DNA from: Methylovirgula sp.
GTDB lineage: Bacteria; Pseudomonadota; Alphaproteobacteria; Rhizobiales; Beijerinckiaceae
Direction: 5' to 3'
DNA length: 19,284 nt
Assembly: GCA_030038595.1 (NCBI GenBank)
Contig: JASHSW010000234.1
Location: 1-19,284, forward strand
The notes below the pieces were generated by a model that saw nothing but the letters and a program-made list of their open reading frames with translations, did not search any database and was not told the origin of the DNA. Positions 2,702-11,124 of this stretch are shown here, piece after piece; position 1 is the first letter of the stretch, and every line of letters begins with the position of its first letter. A program made the translations under genes and the position numbers.

Positions 2702-4048
2702 ATGTCGTTGCGATTTCGACTGCTGATTTCCATTGCCTTCGTGCTTTCCTCTACGCTGATTTTTGGAAGCGTCCTTATCTATTTGAACGCCATCACCAAG
2801 GTCGACACCGAAATGCAGGCGGCGCTGGCCGTCGGCGTGAGAACGGTACAAAACGCGACCGACGATGCGGAAGAAGCCGTCAATCCGCTTCGCCAGTTGG
2901 AACTGCTGGTCGAGGACTTCAATGGGAATCGTCATGTGCGCGCGTTCCTGATGGGCGGCGAAGGCGCCGCAATCGACAGGTCTGTTCTTCTCATGCCCGA
3001 GAATCCCGCGCCGGAATGGTTCAACGCGTTGCTGGCCCGCGAACCGAAGTTCGTACATATCTTTCTTCCACCGCCCTTCGCACGATACGGATCGATCATC
3101 CTCACCACCGATTCGCATAACGAGATCGATGAAGTTTGGAGCGAATTTCTGGTTACGCTGGCGATTCTCGCGTTTTTTTGCACGCTCGTGCTTGTGTTGA
3201 TCTACATAACGCTTGAGCCGCCGCTGCGATTGCTGCGGAACATGTCGACGGCTTTCAAGCGCGTCGGAAGCGGCGATTACAGCCCGCGTATCGCGGAAAT
3301 CGGCGCGCGCGAATTAGCCGATCTGGCGCGCTGCTTTAACGAGATGGTGACGCGCCTTTCGGCGATAGAACGCCAAAACTTTAAGCTCGGGGCGCAGCTT
3401 GCGACGGTCCAGGAGGAGGAGCGCGCCGATCTGGCACGCGATCTCCATGACGAGATCGGGCCTTTGCTCTTCGCGCTAAATATCGACGTTTCGACTCTTC
3501 AATCGCAGGATTGGAGCTCCGCGAGAGAAAGAATCACACGCCAACTCGATGCCATGTCTTCGGCAGTCTCCAGCATCCAGCAGCATGTACGATCGATGCT
3601 GGGCAAGCTGCGGCCCGCGGTGCTGCTCGACCTGGGACTTACGCATGCAGTTGACAATCTTATTTGCTTTTGGGGCAAACGCCATGACGTCCGCATCACC
3701 GCCAATCTCGAGCGCCAGGGCTTCGGCGAAAAGTTGGATGCGACAATCTACCGAGTGTTGCAGGAGGCTCTCAACAACGCCCTGCGACACGGCAATCCTT
3801 CTTTAATCGAAATTGAGGCACGCGAAGACGGGCGTGGTTTTGTCTTGGTCGAAGTTCGCGACGACGGTTCCGGGCTGGCGGCATATGGCACCGATTTCGG
3901 ATTTGGCCTCAAGGGAATGAAGGAACGTGTGGAATCCTTGGGGGGAACGCTCGTGGTGAGCAATCGGGTCGGTCACGGCGGGGTCTTCGTTCGCGCCAGG
4001 CTGCCATTGCCGGACTCGGAGGAAGCGTTGATTACGGAGGTTATCTGA
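2702..4048 (+). CDS. NarX/MoxY-type sensor histidine kinase
   Basis: A 448-residue membrane sensor kinase. A first membrane helix at about 7-29, a periplasmic region about 30-147 and a second helix at about 148-170 are followed by a HAMP domain (about 172-225). The HisKA_3 dimerisation domain carries phosphoacceptor His249 in ARDLHDEIG. The HATPase domain has the N-box QEALNNALRH (354-363), DDGSG (387-391) and GFGLKGM (400-406). The ATG at 2702 is preceded by TAGGA at a 7-base spacing. The stop codon shares one base with the next gene's start. This architecture matches MoxY and FlhS, which control methanol and formaldehyde oxidation in Paracoccus-like bacteria. The convergent xoxF block supports a similar role here, but the signal sensed cannot be read from the sequence. 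Confidence 0.88.
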   Translation: MSLRFRLLISIAFVLSSTLIFGSVLIYLNAITKVDTEMQAALAVGVRTVQNATDDAEEAVNPLRQLELLVEDFNGNRHVRAFLMGGEGAAIDRSVLLMPENPAPEWFNALLAREPKFVHIFLPPPFARYGSIILTTDSHNEIDEVWSEFLVTLAILAFFCTLVLVLIYITLEPPLRLLRNMSTAFKRVGSGDYSPRIAEIGARELADLARCFNEMVTRLSAIERQNFKLGAQLATVQEEERADLARDLHDEIGPLLFALNIDVSTLQSQDWSSARERITRQLDAMSSAVSSIQQHVRSMLGKLRPAVLLDLGLTHAVDNLICFWGKRHDVRITANLERQGFGEKLDATIYRVLQEALNNALRHGNPSLIEIEAREDGRGFVLVEVRDDGSGLAAYGTDFGFGLKGMKERVESLGGTLVVSNRVGHGGVFVRARLPLPDSEEALITEVI

Positions 4049-4665
4049 TGAAGATCCTAATTGTGGACGATCACGTCATCGTCCGAGAAGGCGCCCGCCG
4101 GCTCTTGTCGGCGATGCCGGACGTGGCAGTTTTCGAGGCTTCTTCCGCACGCGAGGGGCTAGCCTTATTCAAGACCATACGCCCCAATCTCGTCCTCCTC
4201 GATCTGAACTTGCCGAATTCGAGCGGCCTCGAATTGCTGCGTCGATTGCAACTCGAAGACCGGGCGGTGCGCGTTCTCGTCCTCAGCATGCACGCGGAGC
4301 CCATTTATGTCTCGCGCACGCTTGAGGCCGGTGCGCGTGGCTACATCAGCAAGACGGCCTCCGCCGATGAACTCATGGCGGCCGTCCGCGAAGTCGGCGC
4401 CGGCGGCCGCTACGTCGAGCGAGAGATCGCCGCGCAGCTCGTCGTTTCGCAATACGGCGGGGTGGACCCATTACAGAAGCTGACGACGCGCGAGGTCGAT
4501 ATCGTCCGTCTCATCGGCGAGGGCAAGAACTTCTCGACGATAGCCGAGGCGCTGGGGATTACCTACAAAACGGTTGCGAACGCCTGCAGCATCATCAAAG
4601 GCAAGCTCGGAGTGGAACGAACCTCGGATCTCATCCGCCTCACTTACCAAATGCAGGACCGCTAA
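4048..4665 (+). CDS. LuxR/FixJ-type response regulator, partner of the kinase
   Basis: A 205-residue regulator. The receiver domain (about 1-120) has the acidic pair in VDDH (7-8), phosphoacceptor Asp52 in LVLLDLNLP, and Lys102 in GYISKT. A LuxR-type helix-turn-helix follows at about 143-200 (LTTREVDIVRLIGEGK, then IAEALGITYKTVANACSIIK). The start overlaps the kinase stop in TGATG and has a strong GGAGG site at 4036-4040, inside the kinase gene, so the two proteins should be co-translated. It resembles MoxX/FlhR regulators of methanol oxidation. Its DNA target is not known; the dyads upstream of xoxF are candidates. Confidence 0.9.
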   Translation: MKILIVDDHVIVREGARRLLSAMPDVAVFEASSAREGLALFKTIRPNLVLLDLNLPNSSGLELLRRLQLEDRAVRVLVLSMHAEPIYVSRTLEAGARGYISKTASADELMAAVREVGAGGRYVEREIAAQLVVSQYGGVDPLQKLTTREVDIVRLIGEGKNFSTIAEALGITYKTVANACSIIKGKLGVERTSDLIRLTYQMQDR

Positions 4666-4695: not shown

Positions 4696-5661
4696 TCAAG
4701 GCATAGCCGCGACGCCCCAGGGAAGATGGCCGACGTTGACCGAACGTATCGGCTTTAGGGTCTTGAGGTCGATCGCCGTAAGATCATTGGTGTTGCCATT
4801 TGCGACGTAGAGCTTCGTTCCATTCGGATCGAGCGCCATATGCCATGGTCTTTCGCCGACGAGCACATAAGCGATTGGCATCAGGGTTTTCGTGTCCACC
4901 ACGGCGACGTGATTGGCATGGCTTAGAGCGACATAGGCGCGCTTTCCGTCCGAAGAAAACAGAATACCGACCGGCTGGATCAGTTCCGGCTGCACGCCCG
5001 GGATGTCGAATCCGATCTTCTTGATGATCACGCGCGTTCGCGCGTCGATGACGGAAACCGTGCCGCCGACTTCTGCCGAAACCCAGACCTGTTTTCCATC
5101 GCGGGTATACTGCGCCACGCGCGGGCGCTGGTCGACGAGGACATCGGCCTCGATTTTCAACGTTTTGACATTGATGAAAAACGCCATGCTGGCCAATTCC
5201 GACGTGTTCACGACGGTTTTTAGGTCTGGACTTACGGCGAGCCCCTCCGGTTCGCCGCCGACTGCGACGGTGCCAACGATCTTGCCGGTAGCGCGATCGA
5301 TAACGGTCACCTGCGATTGCTCCTCGTTCGCGACGTAGAGGCGCTCGCCCTTGGGATCTGTGGCGATCAGTTCCGGATCGGGAACGTTGGGAATGCTGCG
5401 CGAGACACTAAGAGTTTTCGTGTCTATAACGTCGATGCGGTTATCGTCGCCGAGGCAGACAAAAATTTCATCGTGGTCGGGCGACATCACGATTCCGCGC
5501 GGCCTGGCTCCGACTTGAATGATCTTCTTGATAGCGAGCGTCTCACTGTCGAGTACGGTTACCGTATTATCTCTTTCGTTGGTCACGAAAAGGGTGGCGG
5601 CGAGTGCGGCCTGCGACGAGAGAATAGCCGCGGATAATGCGATCGACAGGGCAAGGCGCAT
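4696..5661 (-). CDS. Exported YVTN beta-propeller, PQQ-dehydrogenase associated
   Basis: A 321-residue exported protein whose signal peptide is about residues 1-21 (cut after AALA). The rest is a series of YVTN-type blades, seen as recurring units such as LFVTNERDNTVTVLDSETL, DDNRIDVIDTKTL, LYVANEEQSQVTVIDRATG and LYVANGNTNDLTAIDLKTL. The family is the PQQ-dependent-catabolism beta-propeller group (TIGR03866-like), normally found next to ABC transporter parts and alcohol dehydrogenases. The open frame extends 68 codons further upstream into the binding-protein gene, but the ATG at 5661 directly begins the signal peptide, so it is the likely start. GAGGA lies 12 bases upstream, a rather long spacing. 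Only 16 bases separate it from the upstream gene, so they form an operon. Its biochemical role is not established. Confidence 0.87.
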   Translation of the reverse strand: MRLALSIALSAAILSSQAALAATLFVTNERDNTVTVLDSETLAIKKIIQVGARPRGIVMSPDHDEIFVCLGDDNRIDVIDTKTLSVSRSIPNVPDPELIATDPKGERLYVANEEQSQVTVIDRATGKIVGTVAVGGEPEGLAVSPDLKTVVNTSELASMAFFINVKTLKIEADVLVDQRPRVAQYTRDGKQVWVSAEVGGTVSVIDARTRVIIKKIGFDIPGVQPELIQPVGILFSSDGKRAYVALSHANHVAVVDTKTLMPIAYVLVGERPWHMALDPNGTKLYVANGNTNDLTAIDLKTLKPIRSVNVGHLPWGVAAMP

Positions 5662-5677
5662 CGGCTGGCGTGGTCCT

Positions 5678-6979
5678 CTATTTGGCGAAATGGCACTTCG
5701 TTTCCGGCTCGTCGAAGCCCAAGGAATCCGTGAGGTACTTCGGATGCAGAAAGCCTGCGATCGGCGCGATTGAGACGAGCGCACGCGGGCCTGCGAGCAG
5801 GATTGGCTGACGCAATTGCAGATCCCACTTTCGAAACGAAAGGCCGATGCCTTTGTAGGCGGCAATGTTGAATTCGTCAGAGAGGATGTAGCTGCGTAAC
5901 GACTTCGTATCCGTTGCGCCGGTGCGCAGCAGGGCTTCGCCGAAAATCCGAACTGCGAGCCAGCCCTCGTAATCGCGCTCGGTCATGGTGCGATGGGCGA
6001 ATTTCTCGAACCGATTCTGCATTTCCTGGCCGGCGTATTCTTCGAACGAGCGGTGCCAGGCAACCGCGATCAGTCCTTGCGTTCCAACGACTGGACGCGG
6101 ATCGAAGCTGTTGAACAGGAGGTACTCGCCGAATACTTCATCCATATCGACTACGAAGATCACGTCGTAAGCCGGGACGCTTTGGGTTAGCAGCGCCATT
6201 TGCTGCTCGGTCTGCTGATGGCCCGTATCGGTGGTGCGGGCGCGCGCGCTATAGGCATAGGTGCGCTCGGCGACGATGCGCGAGCCAAACCTGGATGCGG
6301 CGCGCTTGACCGCCGCCGTATAGGCGAGATCCGCCGGTTTTGTGCCATGAATGAGGAACCAGCGCTGCCATCGCTTGTAAAGAAGGAACTGGCCGAGGGC
6401 GTCGGCGCGCATGGCGTAGCTGGGGGCGAGGTGAAAGACGTTTGCCCGGCATTGCTCTTGGCGCAGGTCGTCGTCGCTGGTGCGGATGTCGAGGATGATC
6501 GCTGTTTTGGCTTCAGGGAGGTCGGCTACCGCCAGCAGGTCTTTCGCTTCAAGGTCGGCGACGATTAGGGAATTGCCGGCCGCAAAGACCTTCTTGGCTT
6601 CGGCGACGATGTCGCCGTTTTGCGGTAGGATGTCCTCGGTAAGATCGGTTTCCTGACCGACGAATTTCCCGGTGACATTATTATCTGCTGCGCCTACGCG
6701 CGCGCCCTGAATGCCCTTGTCATAGACGGGCTTGTCGAGGAGCGACAAAGGGACCGGTTCGCTGTAGCGTTTGCCGAGATAGACGATCCGCAAATGTTTG
6801 ATCGGCGTGGCCATGGCCGCCGGCTGAGATTGCGCCCATCCCGCGCTGGGGGCGATGAACATTATCGTCAAACCTGCGGCGCCAAGTCTGCAAAGAGTTC
6901 GCCATGAGCGCCGATAGAGGCCCGGGCAGGTAGTCTTGTCGGCGCGACGCGGTGCGAATTGCAATGCTGCTTTCATCAT
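5678..6979 (-). CDS. PQQ-associated ABC-type substrate-binding protein
   Basis: A 433-residue periplasmic protein. An unusually long N-terminal stretch precedes the signal hydrophobic core (about 32-48) and a cut near SAGWAQ. YRRSWRTL just before the core is faintly Tat-like. The mature part (IKHLRIVYLGKRYSEPVPLS, later IVADLEAKDLLAVADLP, VVGTQGLIAVAWHRSFEEY) matches the branched-chain-amino-acid-like binding proteins found with PQQ dehydrogenases (TIGR03863-like). The start is one of two adjacent ATG codons (6979 or 6976), neither with a strong Shine-Dalgarno site. It lies between the XoxJ-like gene and the propeller. The matching ATPase and permease genes are not in the window, so its ligand and partner are unknown. 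Confidence 0.85.
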   Translation of the reverse strand: MMKAALQFAPRRADKTTCPGLYRRSWRTLCRLGAAGLTIMFIAPSAGWAQSQPAAMATPIKHLRIVYLGKRYSEPVPLSLLDKPVYDKGIQGARVGAADNNVTGKFVGQETDLTEDILPQNGDIVAEAKKVFAAGNSLIVADLEAKDLLAVADLPEAKTAIILDIRTSDDDLRQEQCRANVFHLAPSYAMRADALGQFLLYKRWQRWFLIHGTKPADLAYTAAVKRAASRFGSRIVAERTYAYSARARTTDTGHQQTEQQMALLTQSVPAYDVIFVVDMDEVFGEYLLFNSFDPRPVVGTQGLIAVAWHRSFEEYAGQEMQNRFEKFAHRTMTERDYEGWLAVRIFGEALLRTGATDTKSLRSYILSDEFNIAAYKGIGLSFRKWDLQLRQPILLAGPRALVSIAPIAGFLHPKYLTDSLGFDEPETKCHFAK

Positions 6980-7061: not shown

Positions 7062-8861
7062 TCAGAGATTCTTCCCTTGCTGCGAAACACTGCCACGCGG
7101 CGGATCAGGCTTGGCATCGGTCTTCGGCGCGGTTGCGGCGAGGACGTTGAGAATGTTGACGGCCGCGGCGTTTTGGTTGGCTATCGCGAGGTCGCGCGCC
7201 GTGCGGCCGCCCGCCTCTCTGGCTGCGGGATTGGCGCCGAGTTGCAGGAGCACACCGATCATCGCGGGATTGTTGTGGACCGCGGCGATCATCAGGGCCG
7301 TCATGCCGGCAGTGGAGGCCGCGTTGACGTGCGCACCGCGCGCGACCAAAAGGCGCGCAATGTCGAGCGGCCCGACGCCCTCGACGAGCGCCATCTCGCG
7401 CTGCTCGATCGGGCGCTGGCTGGCGTCGATCATCAGCGGCGTCAACTTTTCCGCGCCCACGGGTTTGCTCACCATGGCGCCGGCGTCGACAAGCGCCTTG
7501 GCGGCCGCGAACTTGCCTTGCGCCAACGCGTAGGCGAGCGCCGTATAGCCTTGCGGGGTGACAGCATCGACGTCAGCCTTGCGTGCCACGAGCAGCTGAA
7601 TAGCCGGGACGTTGTCCTGCGCGGCGGCGTGCATGAGGGGAGTCCAGCCGTCGTTGTCCCGCGCCTCGATCTTTGCGCCGTCGTCGATTAGGTCGGCGAG
7701 CACGTCCATGTCACGCTGCTCGGCGGCGATGTGGATCGGATATTGGCCGAGTCCGTCGCGCCAGTTTACGTTCGCGCCCTTGCTCACCAGAAAACGGATG
7801 CGCTCGAGATCGCCGGCGAGCACCGCGCCGTCGAGAGCGGAATTTACGTCGAGGCCTTGGCTCAGCCATGTCTCGACTTGCGCATCGCCGACATGCGGGG
7901 CTTCGCCCGTCGTCGTATCCGTCGGCCGGATCGGATGCATTATCTGCGCATAGTAGGTCCCGTGCGCCGGGATGTCTCCGGAGATGATGCAAGTGCCGCA
8001 TTCGACGAGGGGAACTCCGTAATCAATGAGAATTTTCTTGATCTCGTCCTTGTGCTTCTCGAGTGCGTTGTCGATCATGTATTTCAGCACGGCGTCGGTC
8101 CGAGCTACCCCGAGCGCCAACTCGAACTCGAGGGGAATGGTGTCTTCCATGCGGTTGACCGGTTGGATCGTCAGCGGAGCGCCCTTCTTGGCCTTGGCGA
8201 AACCAGCGAAGGGCCCCCACACCGCGGCCACGTCGAGCTGACCTGAAGCGACCTCCTCGACCTGCCACCAAGGTTGGTCCTTGACGACCTTGTCGCCGTC
8301 GTAGGTGACGGGTTGAACTTCGATGTTCTTGGTGACGCCGTGCTGCGCCAATGCCTCCCGCAAACCGGATGTTTCGTAAACGCCGATCTTCAAGGTTTTC
8401 AGGCGCGGGTCGTCGAGGCTTGTGAAAGGAGCGATTCCCCTGTCGCTGCGGTAGGCCAGGACATAAGTCGACTTATAAAGAGGTAGCGTCGTCAATGCCT
8501 GTTGGTAATCTGCGGGGATGTCCATCAACACGTCGCAGGCGTCGGCATCGAAGGTCGCGCGGGTGAGACCGCGCTCGAGGTAGGGACGCCAATAATAGCT
8601 GAGCTCCGCTCCCATCGACTTCGCTAGAATTTCGGCGATCTTGTTCTCGAAGCCCTCCCCTTTCAGGTCCGAGAACGGCAGGTTGCCCGGATCGGCGCAG
8701 ACTCTGAGGAAGTCGAGCTTCTGCTTCGCCGCTTCGGCCTTTGCCGCGAGCTTCTGCGCGGCGGTCATATCGTCGAAGTCGGTCTGCGCACGCGCCGGTT
8801 GCCGAACGAGAAGCAAGACCGCGATCGAAGCGATCGCAAACAGAACGCTACGGAGTCTCAT
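7062..8861 (-). CDS. xoxJ: XoxJ/MxaJ-like binding protein fused to ankyrin repeats
   Basis: A 599-residue exported protein. The signal peptide is about residues 1-25 (cut after ARA). Residues about 50-300 form a solute-binding domain of the quinoprotein-dehydrogenase-associated family (TIGR03871-like, XoxJ/MxaJ), with LRVCADPGNLPFSD (52-65), CDVLMDIPADYQ (109-120) and VAAVWGPFAGF (211-221). A Cys-x-x-Cys pair is at 288-291. From about 340 to 575 it has roughly six or seven ankyrin units (for example DGWTPLMHAAAQDNVPAIQL and GMTALMIAAVHNNPAMIGVL), then a polar tail. The ATG at 8861 was chosen because it starts the signal peptide; the frame continues 56 codons upstream without meaning. XoxJ proteins are thought to assist XoxF maturation or activation. 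MxaJ/XoxJ proteins are usually about 270-300 residues, so the ankyrin half is an addition. Confidence 0.87.
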   Translation of the reverse strand: MRLRSVLFAIASIAVLLLVRQPARAQTDFDDMTAAQKLAAKAEAAKQKLDFLRVCADPGNLPFSDLKGEGFENKIAEILAKSMGAELSYYWRPYLERGLTRATFDADACDVLMDIPADYQQALTTLPLYKSTYVLAYRSDRGIAPFTSLDDPRLKTLKIGVYETSGLREALAQHGVTKNIEVQPVTYDGDKVVKDQPWWQVEEVASGQLDVAAVWGPFAGFAKAKKGAPLTIQPVNRMEDTIPLEFELALGVARTDAVLKYMIDNALEKHKDEIKKILIDYGVPLVECGTCIISGDIPAHGTYYAQIMHPIRPTDTTTGEAPHVGDAQVETWLSQGLDVNSALDGAVLAGDLERIRFLVSKGANVNWRDGLGQYPIHIAAEQRDMDVLADLIDDGAKIEARDNDGWTPLMHAAAQDNVPAIQLLVARKADVDAVTPQGYTALAYALAQGKFAAAKALVDAGAMVSKPVGAEKLTPLMIDASQRPIEQREMALVEGVGPLDIARLLVARGAHVNAASTAGMTALMIAAVHNNPAMIGVLLQLGANPAAREAGGRTARDLAIANQNAAAVNILNVLAATAPKTDAKPDPPRGSVSQQGKNL

Positions 8862-8949: not shown

Positions 8950-10815
8950 TCAGTAGACGCGGAACGTGAAGAGCGTGCCACCTTGCGGGATGAGCGGCAG
9001 ATTGGTCGCCTTTGCCATCGCCGTCGCACCGATCGCGCCGAATTTGTCGTTCATGTCGAGACCGGCCGTGACCGGGAGGCCGATCCAACCGCCGATTCCG
9101 GTCCAGATCGAGATGTACTCCTTCCCGTCGATCTTATAGGCGATCGGATTGCCGATGATGCCGGAGGCGAGCTTGCGCTGCCACAGGACCTTGCCGGTAT
9201 CGCGATCGACCGCACGGAAGTCGCCGTTCAAGCTGCCGTAGAAGACAAGGCCGCCGTCGGTGACGAGAGCGCCGCCCCAGTCGGGGTAGGGATCCGGGAT
9301 ATCCCAATCTTCCTTGCCGGTCAGAACGTCGAATTTCTTGAACCGGCCGGCCACGCCTGGTTTTTCTTCATACATGTAGACGTTGGCGAAGACATAGACG
9401 GTGCCTTGCTGGAAGCTCGTGCGCTCCTGCGGTTCGTCCGTCATGCACCAGTTGTTGGTCGGGCAATAAAACTTCGTCGGGTCCTTGGGATCGACGGCGC
9501 AAGGCTGCTGGTCCTTGCCGCCCATCGCCGACGGACACGCCTGGGTCGTCACCCCGATCTTCAACGGCGAGTGTTCGTAGACTTTCACGGGACGGCCAGT
9601 CTTGAGATCGACCCGCTCCGCCCAGTTTACCGTCACGAACTTATGCGCGCGCAGGAGTTCGCCAGTTTCGCGGTTGAGCACGTAGGCGAAACCGTTGCGA
9701 TCGAAATGAACCAGGCATTTGCATGGTTTGCCGTCGACGTCTGGCATGTCGACGAGGATGTTCTCGTTCACGCCGTCATAGTCCCACTGGTCGAACGGAG
9801 TCCACTGGTAGTTCCACGCCACCGTTCCGTCTTCCAAATGGCGCGCCATGATCGTCATCGACCACTTGTTGTCCCATTTGCCGGAGTTGCAGGATTCTTG
9901 TGTCGGCGGGTTGGCGCCGCAGCGGGTCGTCGGACTCCAGTTGCCTGGGTTGCCGTTCGACTCGTAGATCAGTTTGAGTTCAGGGTCGTAACTGTACCAG
10001 GCCCAAGGCGAGCCGCCGCCGCGCTTCCACTCGTCGCCCGGATAAGTGAAGCCCTGATTTTGGGTCTGATCATGCCGAGAGTTGAACTTGTTCGTATCCG
10101 CCGTGATGCCGATTTCCTCGTCTGTGCCGTTGCTTTCCTTGCTCCAAACGAGCTTTCCGGTATCGAGGTCGTAGGCGTCGAGGCGGCCGCGAGCCGCGAA
10201 TTCATCGCCGCCGAAGCCGGCGATCACCAGGTTTCCGGCGATCATCGGCGCGTTGGTCTGCGTCTCGCCATGTTCCGGATAGGAGTGCTTGACGACCCAG
10301 ATCTCCTTGCCGGTCTTGGCATCGAGCGCGATAACGAAACCGTCGAGCGTGCCAAACACCACCTTACCGCTGGCGTAGGAGAGGCCGCGGTTCACGGTGT
10401 CGCAGCAGGCGCGCGGAACGGCCGACTCGTCGCGGTCGGTTTTCTTGAGATAGTTCCAGACTTCCTTCGGATTATCCGGATCGGAGAGATCGAGCGCTTG
10501 CACGATGTTCGGCCAGGCACTGACCAAAAACATCATCGGGGTGCCGTCGACCATGACGACGAGCGGCTGGCCTTCGTGGCCACGCAACGCGCCGCTCGAC
10601 TGCGACCACACCATCTGGAGCCTATCGACGTTCTCTTTGTTGATGTCGCTCAGCGCGCTATGGCGTTGCAGCGCATAATTTTGGCCGGTTACGGGCCAAA
10701 GGTTCGGATCTTTCTCCTCTTGGACGATGAATTCGTTCGCAAAGGCATAGGATGCGCTTGCGACAAGGCCGACCAATGCTCCTGCGAATAATAGAATTTT
10801 CCCTCGATGACTCAT
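8950..10815 (-). CDS. xoxF: Lanthanide-type PQQ methanol dehydrogenase XoxF
   Basis: A 621-residue periplasmic alcohol dehydrogenase that oxidises methanol (and perhaps other short alcohols or formaldehyde) using PQQ and a rare-earth ion. The signal peptide is about 1-27 (ASYAFA, then NEF). The PQQ-binding vicinal disulfide pair is Cys137-Cys138 (RACCDTVNRG). Putative metal ligands are Glu205 (GGDEFAARG), Asn289 (NGNPGNW) and Asp345/Asp347 in QWDYDGVNE. Asp345 is the catalytic base, and Asp347 is the extra aspartate that marks lanthanide XoxF enzymes as opposed to calcium MxaF. Further cysteines at 299, 309, 365, 367, 427, 439, 451 and 457 make it cysteine-rich. The ATG at 10815 has AGAGGA upstream and starts the signal peptide. 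The clade is uncertain; I suspect it is not XoxF5. Confidence 0.95.
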   Translation of the reverse strand: MSHRGKILLFAGALVGLVASASYAFANEFIVQEEKDPNLWPVTGQNYALQRHSALSDINKENVDRLQMVWSQSSGALRGHEGQPLVVMVDGTPMMFLVSAWPNIVQALDLSDPDNPKEVWNYLKKTDRDESAVPRACCDTVNRGLSYASGKVVFGTLDGFVIALDAKTGKEIWVVKHSYPEHGETQTNAPMIAGNLVIAGFGGDEFAARGRLDAYDLDTGKLVWSKESNGTDEEIGITADTNKFNSRHDQTQNQGFTYPGDEWKRGGGSPWAWYSYDPELKLIYESNGNPGNWSPTTRCGANPPTQESCNSGKWDNKWSMTIMARHLEDGTVAWNYQWTPFDQWDYDGVNENILVDMPDVDGKPCKCLVHFDRNGFAYVLNRETGELLRAHKFVTVNWAERVDLKTGRPVKVYEHSPLKIGVTTQACPSAMGGKDQQPCAVDPKDPTKFYCPTNNWCMTDEPQERTSFQQGTVYVFANVYMYEEKPGVAGRFKKFDVLTGKEDWDIPDPYPDWGGALVTDGGLVFYGSLNGDFRAVDRDTGKVLWQRKLASGIIGNPIAYKIDGKEYISIWTGIGGWIGLPVTAGLDMNDKFGAIGATAMAKATNLPLIPQGGTLFTFRVY

Positions 10816-11124
10816 GGCTTTTCCTCTCCAGCTTGGACTTGCGCGTCTGCCGTCTTGAGCGCGGACTCGTGCCGAGATTTCGTTGGCCGGTGAGCCCATC
10901 GCTTGGTCGTGCGCGCCCTCACCGAAGCGCATGATCTCGTTCATGCGACGACGCGCATGCTAGCGAGACGGGATACGAACGAGCTACGGCAGGGTTACCT
11001 AAAGGGCTCGGGAGTTTCTCCCGAAGCGGCAAAGGCTCTTGGGCTTCGCAAAAATGGAGATCTGGAGTTTGCGAAAGTTCGAACTCGGATTCTGGAAGCC
11101 CGCAAGCTTTTTGTGCCGCTCGTC
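10816..11124 (-). promoter_or_regulatory. Upstream region of xoxF with dyads
   Basis: No gene is supported here; frames crossing it show no domain. Three inverted repeats stand out. TTCGCAAA (11045-11052) pairs with TTTGCGAA (11068-11075) across 15 bases. AGTTCGAACT (11076-11085) is a perfect 10-bp palindrome directly adjacent. TCGGGAG/CTCCCGA (11008-11014, 11018-11024) forms a 7-bp hairpin with a 3-base loop. The first two look like regulator sites; the third could be a terminator for the small upstream gene or part of the xoxF leader. I could not identify a clear -35/-10 pair. The xoxF ribosome-binding site AGAGGA is at about 10822-10827. Confidence 0.4.

Follow-up and report, generated by a model that had tools for sequence, protein, structure and literature searches.

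XoxJ and MxaJ are thought to bind their partly folded apo-enzyme and to aid the insertion of its cofactors (PMC12997753), and when M. extorquens AM1 grows on methanol in the presence of lanthanum, losing xoxJ is reported to have the same effect as losing both xoxF genes (PMC7391723). The XoxJ of this organism (6onp) serves a clade-5 XoxF and MxaJ serves MxaF, following the naming of PMC8546591, by which the enzyme called "XoxF1" in M. extorquens AM1 belongs to clade 5. MxaF and MxaJ have been solved together as a complex, according to the title of entry 9ism. An XoxJ domain fused to another periplasmic domain has been described in cytochrome cGJ of Methylacidiphilum, a verrucomicrobial XoxG-XoxJ protein in which the partner is a cytochrome (PMC8170126, PMC8498564).

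For clade 1, the described cluster of Methylocella silvestris BL2 comprises XoxF1, XoxJ1, XoxG1 and an ABC-transporter protein (Msil_3149 to 3146; PMC9291206). In the part of that report drawn on here, XoxJ1 (Msil_3148) is called only a solute-binding protein and repeats are not mentioned, and a YVTN protein of the cluster appears in the figure key only. On methanol with lanthanum, XoxJ1 of M. silvestris was down 62-fold (log2 -6.0; PMC9291206, Table 2), compared with approximately 7-fold for both XoxF1 (log2 -2.9) and XoxG1 (log2 -2.7), a response unlike that of a simple 1:1 partner of XoxF1.

Ankyrin proteins are themselves needed for the activity of cofactor-bearing oxidoreductases: AnkB of P. 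aeruginosa and Cj1386 of Campylobacter jejuni are required for catalase activity, "probably by allowing heme binding", and AnkB, periplasmic by the title of its paper, is needed for full activity of the catalase KatB (PMC7567364). Their partner, a catalase with heme, sets them apart from the protein described below. Both are separate proteins and are not known to be joined to an XoxJ domain. By analogy, the pair AnkB-KatB is the closest functional precedent for the ankyrin part discussed here.

The window, that is the whole stretch of 19,284 nucleotides that was analysed, encodes on its minus strand, in this order, a XoxF dehydrogenase, an XoxJ-ankyrin fusion protein, a TIGR03863 substrate-binding protein and a TIGR03866 beta-propeller. 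The fusion protein, encoded directly after xoxF1, is here named XoxJ1-ANK. The features of the window are as follows.

8950..10944, minus strand: PQQ methanol dehydrogenase XoxF, clade 1 (start probably at 10815, judged by eye)
7062..8861, minus strand: XoxJ-ankyrin fusion protein XoxJ1-ANK, 599 aa, a single open frame
8784..8861, minus strand: probable signal peptide, residues ~1-26 (assigned by eye; the model places a helix at 3-18)
8004..8708, minus strand: XoxJ/MxaJ-type binding domain, residues 52-286 (TIGR03871 and Foldseek)
7989..8000, minus strand: CxxC pair C288/C291 at the domain joint (alignment and pattern comparison)
7902..7946, minus strand: probably flexible linker, residues 306-320 (pLDDT <50)
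7131..7877, minus strand: ankyrin domain, residues 329-577, seven repeats (Pfam and AlphaFold2 model)
5678..6979, minus strand: TIGR03863 substrate-binding protein, of the family of a PQQ-ADH-linked ABC transporter
4696..5865, minus strand: TIGR03866 beta-propeller (probable start 5664, read by eye)
2702..4048, plus strand: sensor histidine kinase, with relatives in 37 of 81 fused loci
4048..4665, plus strand: response regulator paired with the histidine kinase, with relatives in 41 of 81 fused loci

The first two gaps between the minus-strand genes measure 88 and 82 bases, from which we infer that xoxF, the XoxJ1-ANK gene and the TIGR03863 gene likely form one operon. By description only, the TIGR03863 gene resembles PedA1 (PMC6839425) and the propeller gene resembles PedA2 (PMC6839425, PMC12997753), which are reported to be parts of a lanthanide transporter (PMC6839425). 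A 620-residue open reading frame with a signal-like start lies farther along the same strand (318-2180) and has no NCBIfam or Pfam match at E 0.01. The genome contains a second XoxF1-type cluster (L013; positions 1-5438 of contig C139 of genome G000) with a XoxF fragment, a 621-aa XoxJ-ankyrin protein, a XoxG-like cytochrome, and TIGR03863 and TIGR03866 genes. The presence of two such clusters agrees with a 2025 survey that reported xoxF1 in Methylovirgula, with three copies in M. ligni (PMC12482762).

The original prediction described this gene, without giving its strand, as an XoxJ-type domain and six or seven ankyrin units in one frame behind one signal peptide, next to a lanthanide-type XoxF. 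All of these points hold on the minus strand. TIGR03871, the model for quinoprotein dehydrogenase-associated putative ABC transporter substrate-binding proteins, matches residues 52-286 of the 599-residue protein with 259 bits, above its cut-off of 212.15, whereas the MxaJ/MoxJ equivalog TIGR03870, with a cut-off of 258.1, reaches only 115.5 bits. In the C-terminal part the cut-offs of five Pfam ankyrin models are exceeded, and the AlphaFold2 model likewise has repeated two-helix units there. By sequence, residues 49-286 match XoxJ (6onp) in the PDB, and many ankyrins match within residues ~336-577; Foldseek gave the same division, with 5sv6 (MxaJ), 6onp (XoxJ) and 9ism chain B (from the MxaF/MxaJ complex) for the first domain and many ankyrin proteins for the second. 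XoxJ and MxaJ thus share the fold of XoxJ1-ANK over residues ~49-286 as well as a gene position beside the dehydrogenase gene, but with 284-300 residues the chains of 6onp, 5sv6 and 9ism are too short for ankyrin repeats. The gene starts 88 bases after the stop of a xoxF whose product carries the lanthanide Asp, and this XoxF gene is the next one upstream.

The AlphaFold2 model, built with 77 sequences, contains two ordered domains (mean pLDDT 89.2, pTM 0.62). Sixteen helices follow from residue 326: one is a cap, fourteen are arranged in seven pairs, and one more lies within an insert of the fifth repeat. We count seven ankyrin repeats from the seven pairs. The insert, approximately 15 residues between the two helices of that repeat (residues 484-498, positions 7368-7412), is partly conserved in the family. 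With a pTM of 0.62 and a low-confidence segment at residues 306-320, the model does not predict how the two domains are placed relative to each other. XoxJ1-ANK is also distinct from the cytochrome cGJ type, as it has no cytochrome match and as Ile, rather than His, comes after its CxxC (288-291).

The same fusion, matched over both domains, occurs at 74 loci from other records among the best 80 of 252 relatives in a scan with one genome per species. The nearest of these loci belong to Methylovirgula MAGs (79-81% identity in the best segment), and the best 80 matches further include Hyphomicrobium, Methyloceanibacter, Methyloligella, Methylocella and other genera or MAGs, as well as Methylorubrum rhodinum, Solimonas, Rudaea and a Rhodocyclaceae MAG. 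The concern that a sequencing error had joined two genes is dispelled by these loci, and the same architecture in many independent records rules out an artefact of assembly or reading frame. The 90 fused genes collected (81 loci, some overlapping) correspond to 87 different proteins. A protein search with residues 40-330 retrieved 2357 proteins (90% clusters), a number that may include unfused proteins and in which fused ones are favoured by the preset lengths of 330 to ~1050 residues. Ankyrin Pfam domains are present in 116 of the 120 matches listed, the window's own protein included, and the other four, as read by eye, seem to lose the reading frame either at the repeats or within them. In the family of the window genome, 12 of 298 genomes contain the fusion at E 1e-100 or better, with same-genus matches at 70-82%. 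These matches and the nearest named relatives suggest Methylovirgula (Beijerinckiaceae) as the probable source of the window.

Two records in this collection call for separate comment. Methyloceanibacter marginalis has an apparent triple fusion of XoxJ, ankyrin and TIGR03863 (L024, 1028 aa). It seems to stem from a break in the frame, close to where the repeats end, that carries the frame on into the following gene; that gene has a signal peptide of its own at its start. L024 was counted as fused among the 90 genes and excluded from the alignment. A contig filed under Candidatus Binataceae (L022) carries an XoxJ-ankyrin operon whose fusion protein is 76% identical to that of the window, and it is possibly misbinned.

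Within the wider family the fusion accounts for a minority of TIGR03871 domains. Among 398 genomes from the phylum, 40 contained a total of 46 matches above the TIGR03871 cut-off, of which four were fused frames (588-662 residues, two of them from the window's own genome) and the remaining 42 were frames of at most 507 residues. The statement that XoxJ proteins are normally single-domain is too narrow, as it leaves out the XoxG-XoxJ proteins of Methylacidiphilum and the many ankyrin relatives. The possibility that such fusions are already common and characterised was borne out only in its first half. We found no description of an XoxJ- or MxaJ-ankyrin protein in the open-licence PMC literature, although one may exist elsewhere; the ankyrins in PMC7589939 belong, by that source, to a Francisella-like organism. 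The fusion is real, common, tied to XoxF1 as detailed below, and undescribed in the open-licence PMC literature searched.

In one genome, at 3.46 Mb, a xoxF gene is followed in this order by genes for an XoxJ-ankyrin protein of 581 residues, for a cytochrome, for TIGR03863 and for TIGR03866. This genome is probably that of Methylocella silvestris BL2. If the 581-residue protein is indeed the XoxJ1 of that strain, the fused protein has already been detected by proteomics (PMC9291206).

The XoxF of the window has its best PDB match to 7o6z (800 bits), reported to be the XoxF1 enzyme of Methylacidimicrobium thermophilum (PMC8546591), followed by 4mae with 564 bits. An Asp before the metal-binding Glu is given as diagnostic for XoxF1 (PMC8546591), and the window XoxF has it in the motif GGDEF as Asp247, together with the catalytic Asp388 and the lanthanide Asp390 (numbering of the open reading frame). 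The next gene upstream is xoxF for 85 of the 90 fused genes; 72 of these 85 XoxFs were used for comparison, the other 13 being shorter than 450 residues. The unfused set consisted of 40 stretches derived from 52 unfused rows (37 above and 3 below the TIGR03871 cut-off), and in 29 of the 40 there was a XoxF-like gene of 450 or more residues; we used the one closest to the XoxJ gene, whether or not it was adjacent. The diagnostic Asp is present in all 73 XoxFs paired with a fused XoxJ, the window included, versus none of the 29 paired with an unfused XoxJ. The lanthanide Asp occurs in 73/73 and 26/29, respectively. Seven other XoxF rows were available, and five of them show D-E, two inside the clade-1 branch and three distant and lacking the lanthanide Asp; the diagnostic residue alone is thus not sufficient to assign clade 1.

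The phylogenetic trees display the same division. All 73 fused-linked XoxFs and none of the 29 unfused-linked ones fall in a single branch of 75 rows with support 100, which can be called a clade on the assumption that the root lies outside it, the tree having been built by a quick method with a midpoint root. Of the two extra rows in this branch, one lies at a locus edge and the other is split from its XoxJ by a small ORF. In the tree of XoxJ domains, one branch with support 100/100 parts the 86 fused rows (the 85 genes with an upstream XoxF plus the window) from the 40 unfused ones. Taken together, the two trees fit a single origin of the fusion.

The 74 loci were retrieved by alignment of fused proteins, so that their fused state is partly by design. 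In view of this bias we performed two surveys anchored on XoxF instead, which took the window XoxF as reference and applied cut-offs of 1e-170 and 1e-200. In the order, 44 XoxF matches were found in 24 of 397 genomes and the fusion follows 36 of them (hand tally; three of the 36 fusions, in L145, L154/L172 and L156/L178, are apparently broken by frame changes), and in the class of genome G448 the fusion follows all four XoxFs found, in 4 of 369 genomes. Both surveys together thus give 40 fusions after 48 close XoxF relatives, and an unfused XoxJ follows none of the 48. The remaining eight have no XoxJ in the stretch covered: three lie at contig ends, one is the first of a tandem pair and four have approximately 4 kb covered.

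The diagnostic site is readable in 47 of the 48 surveyed XoxFs (that of L177 is split), and 42 have Asp, comprising all 39 readable ones that are followed by the fusion plus those of L143, L155 and L173. Asn or Ser takes its place in five, namely L166, L174, L175, L176 and the first XoxF of the L172 pair, all of which are among the eight without XoxJ. In the surveyed sample, then, the diagnostic Asp and the fusion appear to come and go nearly together. Four genomes of one genus (L166 and L173-L175) have a XoxF near XoxF1 and no XoxJ within ~4 kb downstream, with Asn in place of the diagnostic Asp in three of them and Asp in L173. As judged from gene neighbourhoods and trees, the fusion appears to be the usual XoxJ helper of proteobacterial XoxF1 systems.

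Downstream of the fusion, we scored the next five called genes wherever 4.5 kb or more of sequence was available. Of the 76 fused genes that qualified, 69 have the propeller among these five, 52 TIGR03863 and 48 a XoxG-like cytochrome. It had been proposed that the fusion could take the place of an absent partner, xoxG for example, and that it might correlate with the lack of this gene. The window cluster would suit this idea, with no xoxG between XoxJ1-ANK and the TIGR03863 gene, as would the 28 of 76 fused clusters with none among the next five called genes. However, the cytochrome is present in the other 48 and adjoins the fusion in the second cluster of the window genome (contig C139), and several genomes, such as G053 and G799, combine a xoxG-bearing with a xoxG-less fused cluster. 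On these counts the repeats are no substitute for xoxG, and we regard replacement of a missing partner as highly improbable. The fusion is associated with XoxF clade 1 rather than with the presence of xoxG.

The recurring gene order after the fusion, with the frequencies just given, could alternatively mean that the ankyrin repeats are a scaffold that brings XoxG, the TIGR03863 protein and the propeller to XoxF1 and thereby links methanol oxidation or metal delivery with them. The membership of the related PedA1 and PedA2 in a lanthanide transporter (PMC6839425) would be in keeping with such a function. On the other hand, fusion clusters exist without each of these three genes, and of the 40 stretches that carry an unfused XoxJ, 19 contain TIGR03863- and TIGR03866-like genes as well. 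The close association of the repeats with XoxF1 is thus matched by none of the three, and a scaffold function seems unlikely, if worth keeping in mind.

A further feature that distinguishes the fused proteins, absent from the original prediction, is a CxxC directly behind the XoxJ domain, present in all 86 fused proteins of the tree set, in 85 of them within the pattern VPLxxCxxC and in the last one with only I for V. Among the 40 unfused XoxJ proteins none has a CxxC in the last 70 residues; in the sets compared, the CxxC at the joint is confined to the fused XoxJ branch. C288 and C291 are invariant in an alignment of 77 rows, consisting of the window and 76 of the 77 rows left (L016 was removed by hand) after L024, a cut copy in L053 and rows with more than 85% identity had been dropped. 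The motif is not a heme motif, as no His follows. It may be a structural disulfide that caps the XoxJ domain.

A different interpretation makes the CxxC, rather than the repeats, the functional element: as a redox-active site it would help to form the vicinal disulfide of XoxF1 or protect it, and the repeats would do no more than hold the substrate. Its invariance in the 77 rows and its distribution (86/86 fused, 0/40 unfused) are compatible with this, and a CC pair is found somewhere in the sequence of all 109 XoxF/ADH proteins compared. This last observation cuts both ways, because XoxFs served by an unfused XoxJ have the CC pair too, and a CxxC-bearing XoxJ is therefore not generally needed for it. 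Moreover, the blocks at residues 281-300 are well ordered in the AlphaFold2 model (pLDDT 96-97), and the pair may simply be structural. We consider this interpretation very unlikely.

The reading that we favour, with modest confidence, assigns XoxJ1-ANK, as its XoxJ, to a lanthanide methanol dehydrogenase system of clade 1, in which the tethered ankyrin domain would act as a second grip in the maturation of XoxF1. The XoxJ domain would bind partly folded XoxF1 and help PQQ and the lanthanide into it, as proposed for XoxJ/MxaJ, and the ankyrin domain would provide the second grip. The likeliest target of this grip would be XoxF1 itself, or XoxF1 in its open, unloaded form; a single protein could then hold the enzyme during cofactor loading. 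A maturation role with the repeats as second grip is favoured by the role assigned to XoxJ and MxaJ, the MxaF/MxaJ complex and the ankyrin proteins needed by catalases. A more elaborate mechanism, unused by the better-studied clades, would have the XoxJ and ankyrin parts grip open apo-XoxF1 from both sides while the CxxC sets the vicinal disulfide; we find this quite unlikely.

A conserved ankyrin groove was sought as a sign of a common target. The target-binding positions in designed ankyrins are 2, 3, 5, 13, 14 and 33 of the repeat. Conservation at these positions in the 77 sequences is not above that of the outer helix (0.399 vs 0.380, p = 0.57), nor was it under an earlier layout of the fifth repeat (0.406 vs 0.380, p = 0.40), and no conserved groove emerges under either layout. 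The lack of this signal and the uneven response of XoxJ1 and XoxF1 to lanthanum count against the second-grip reading. So do the other XoxF and MxaF systems, which manage without ankyrin repeats, and the four XoxF genes near XoxF1 (L166, L173-L175) that have no XoxJ within ~4 kb downstream, the one in L173 despite its diagnostic Asp.

The lack of a conserved groove could also point to an ankyrin domain that is a passenger of the lineage or serves a task other than methanol oxidation, for example protection of XoxJ1-ANK itself or cell-wall binding, and given a single origin, inheritance alone could explain the association of the fusion with XoxF1. Yet the repeats are kept in alpha- and gammaproteobacteria, mostly at 40-50% identity to the window protein and with the repeat pattern conserved, and no repeat-less XoxJ was encountered in the 48 XoxF neighbourhoods. 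A passenger domain is, in our judgement, very doubtful, and we retain the second-grip reading as the more probable account of XoxJ1-ANK.

XoxF1 is a little-studied clade, and the combination of a clade-specific extension with a conserved cysteine pair offers a concrete and testable handle on it. In metagenomes, the fusion also offers an easy way to recognise proteobacterial XoxF1 systems by sequence. Finally, our results suggest that the XoxJ1-ANK helper may be needed for heterologous expression of XoxF1.
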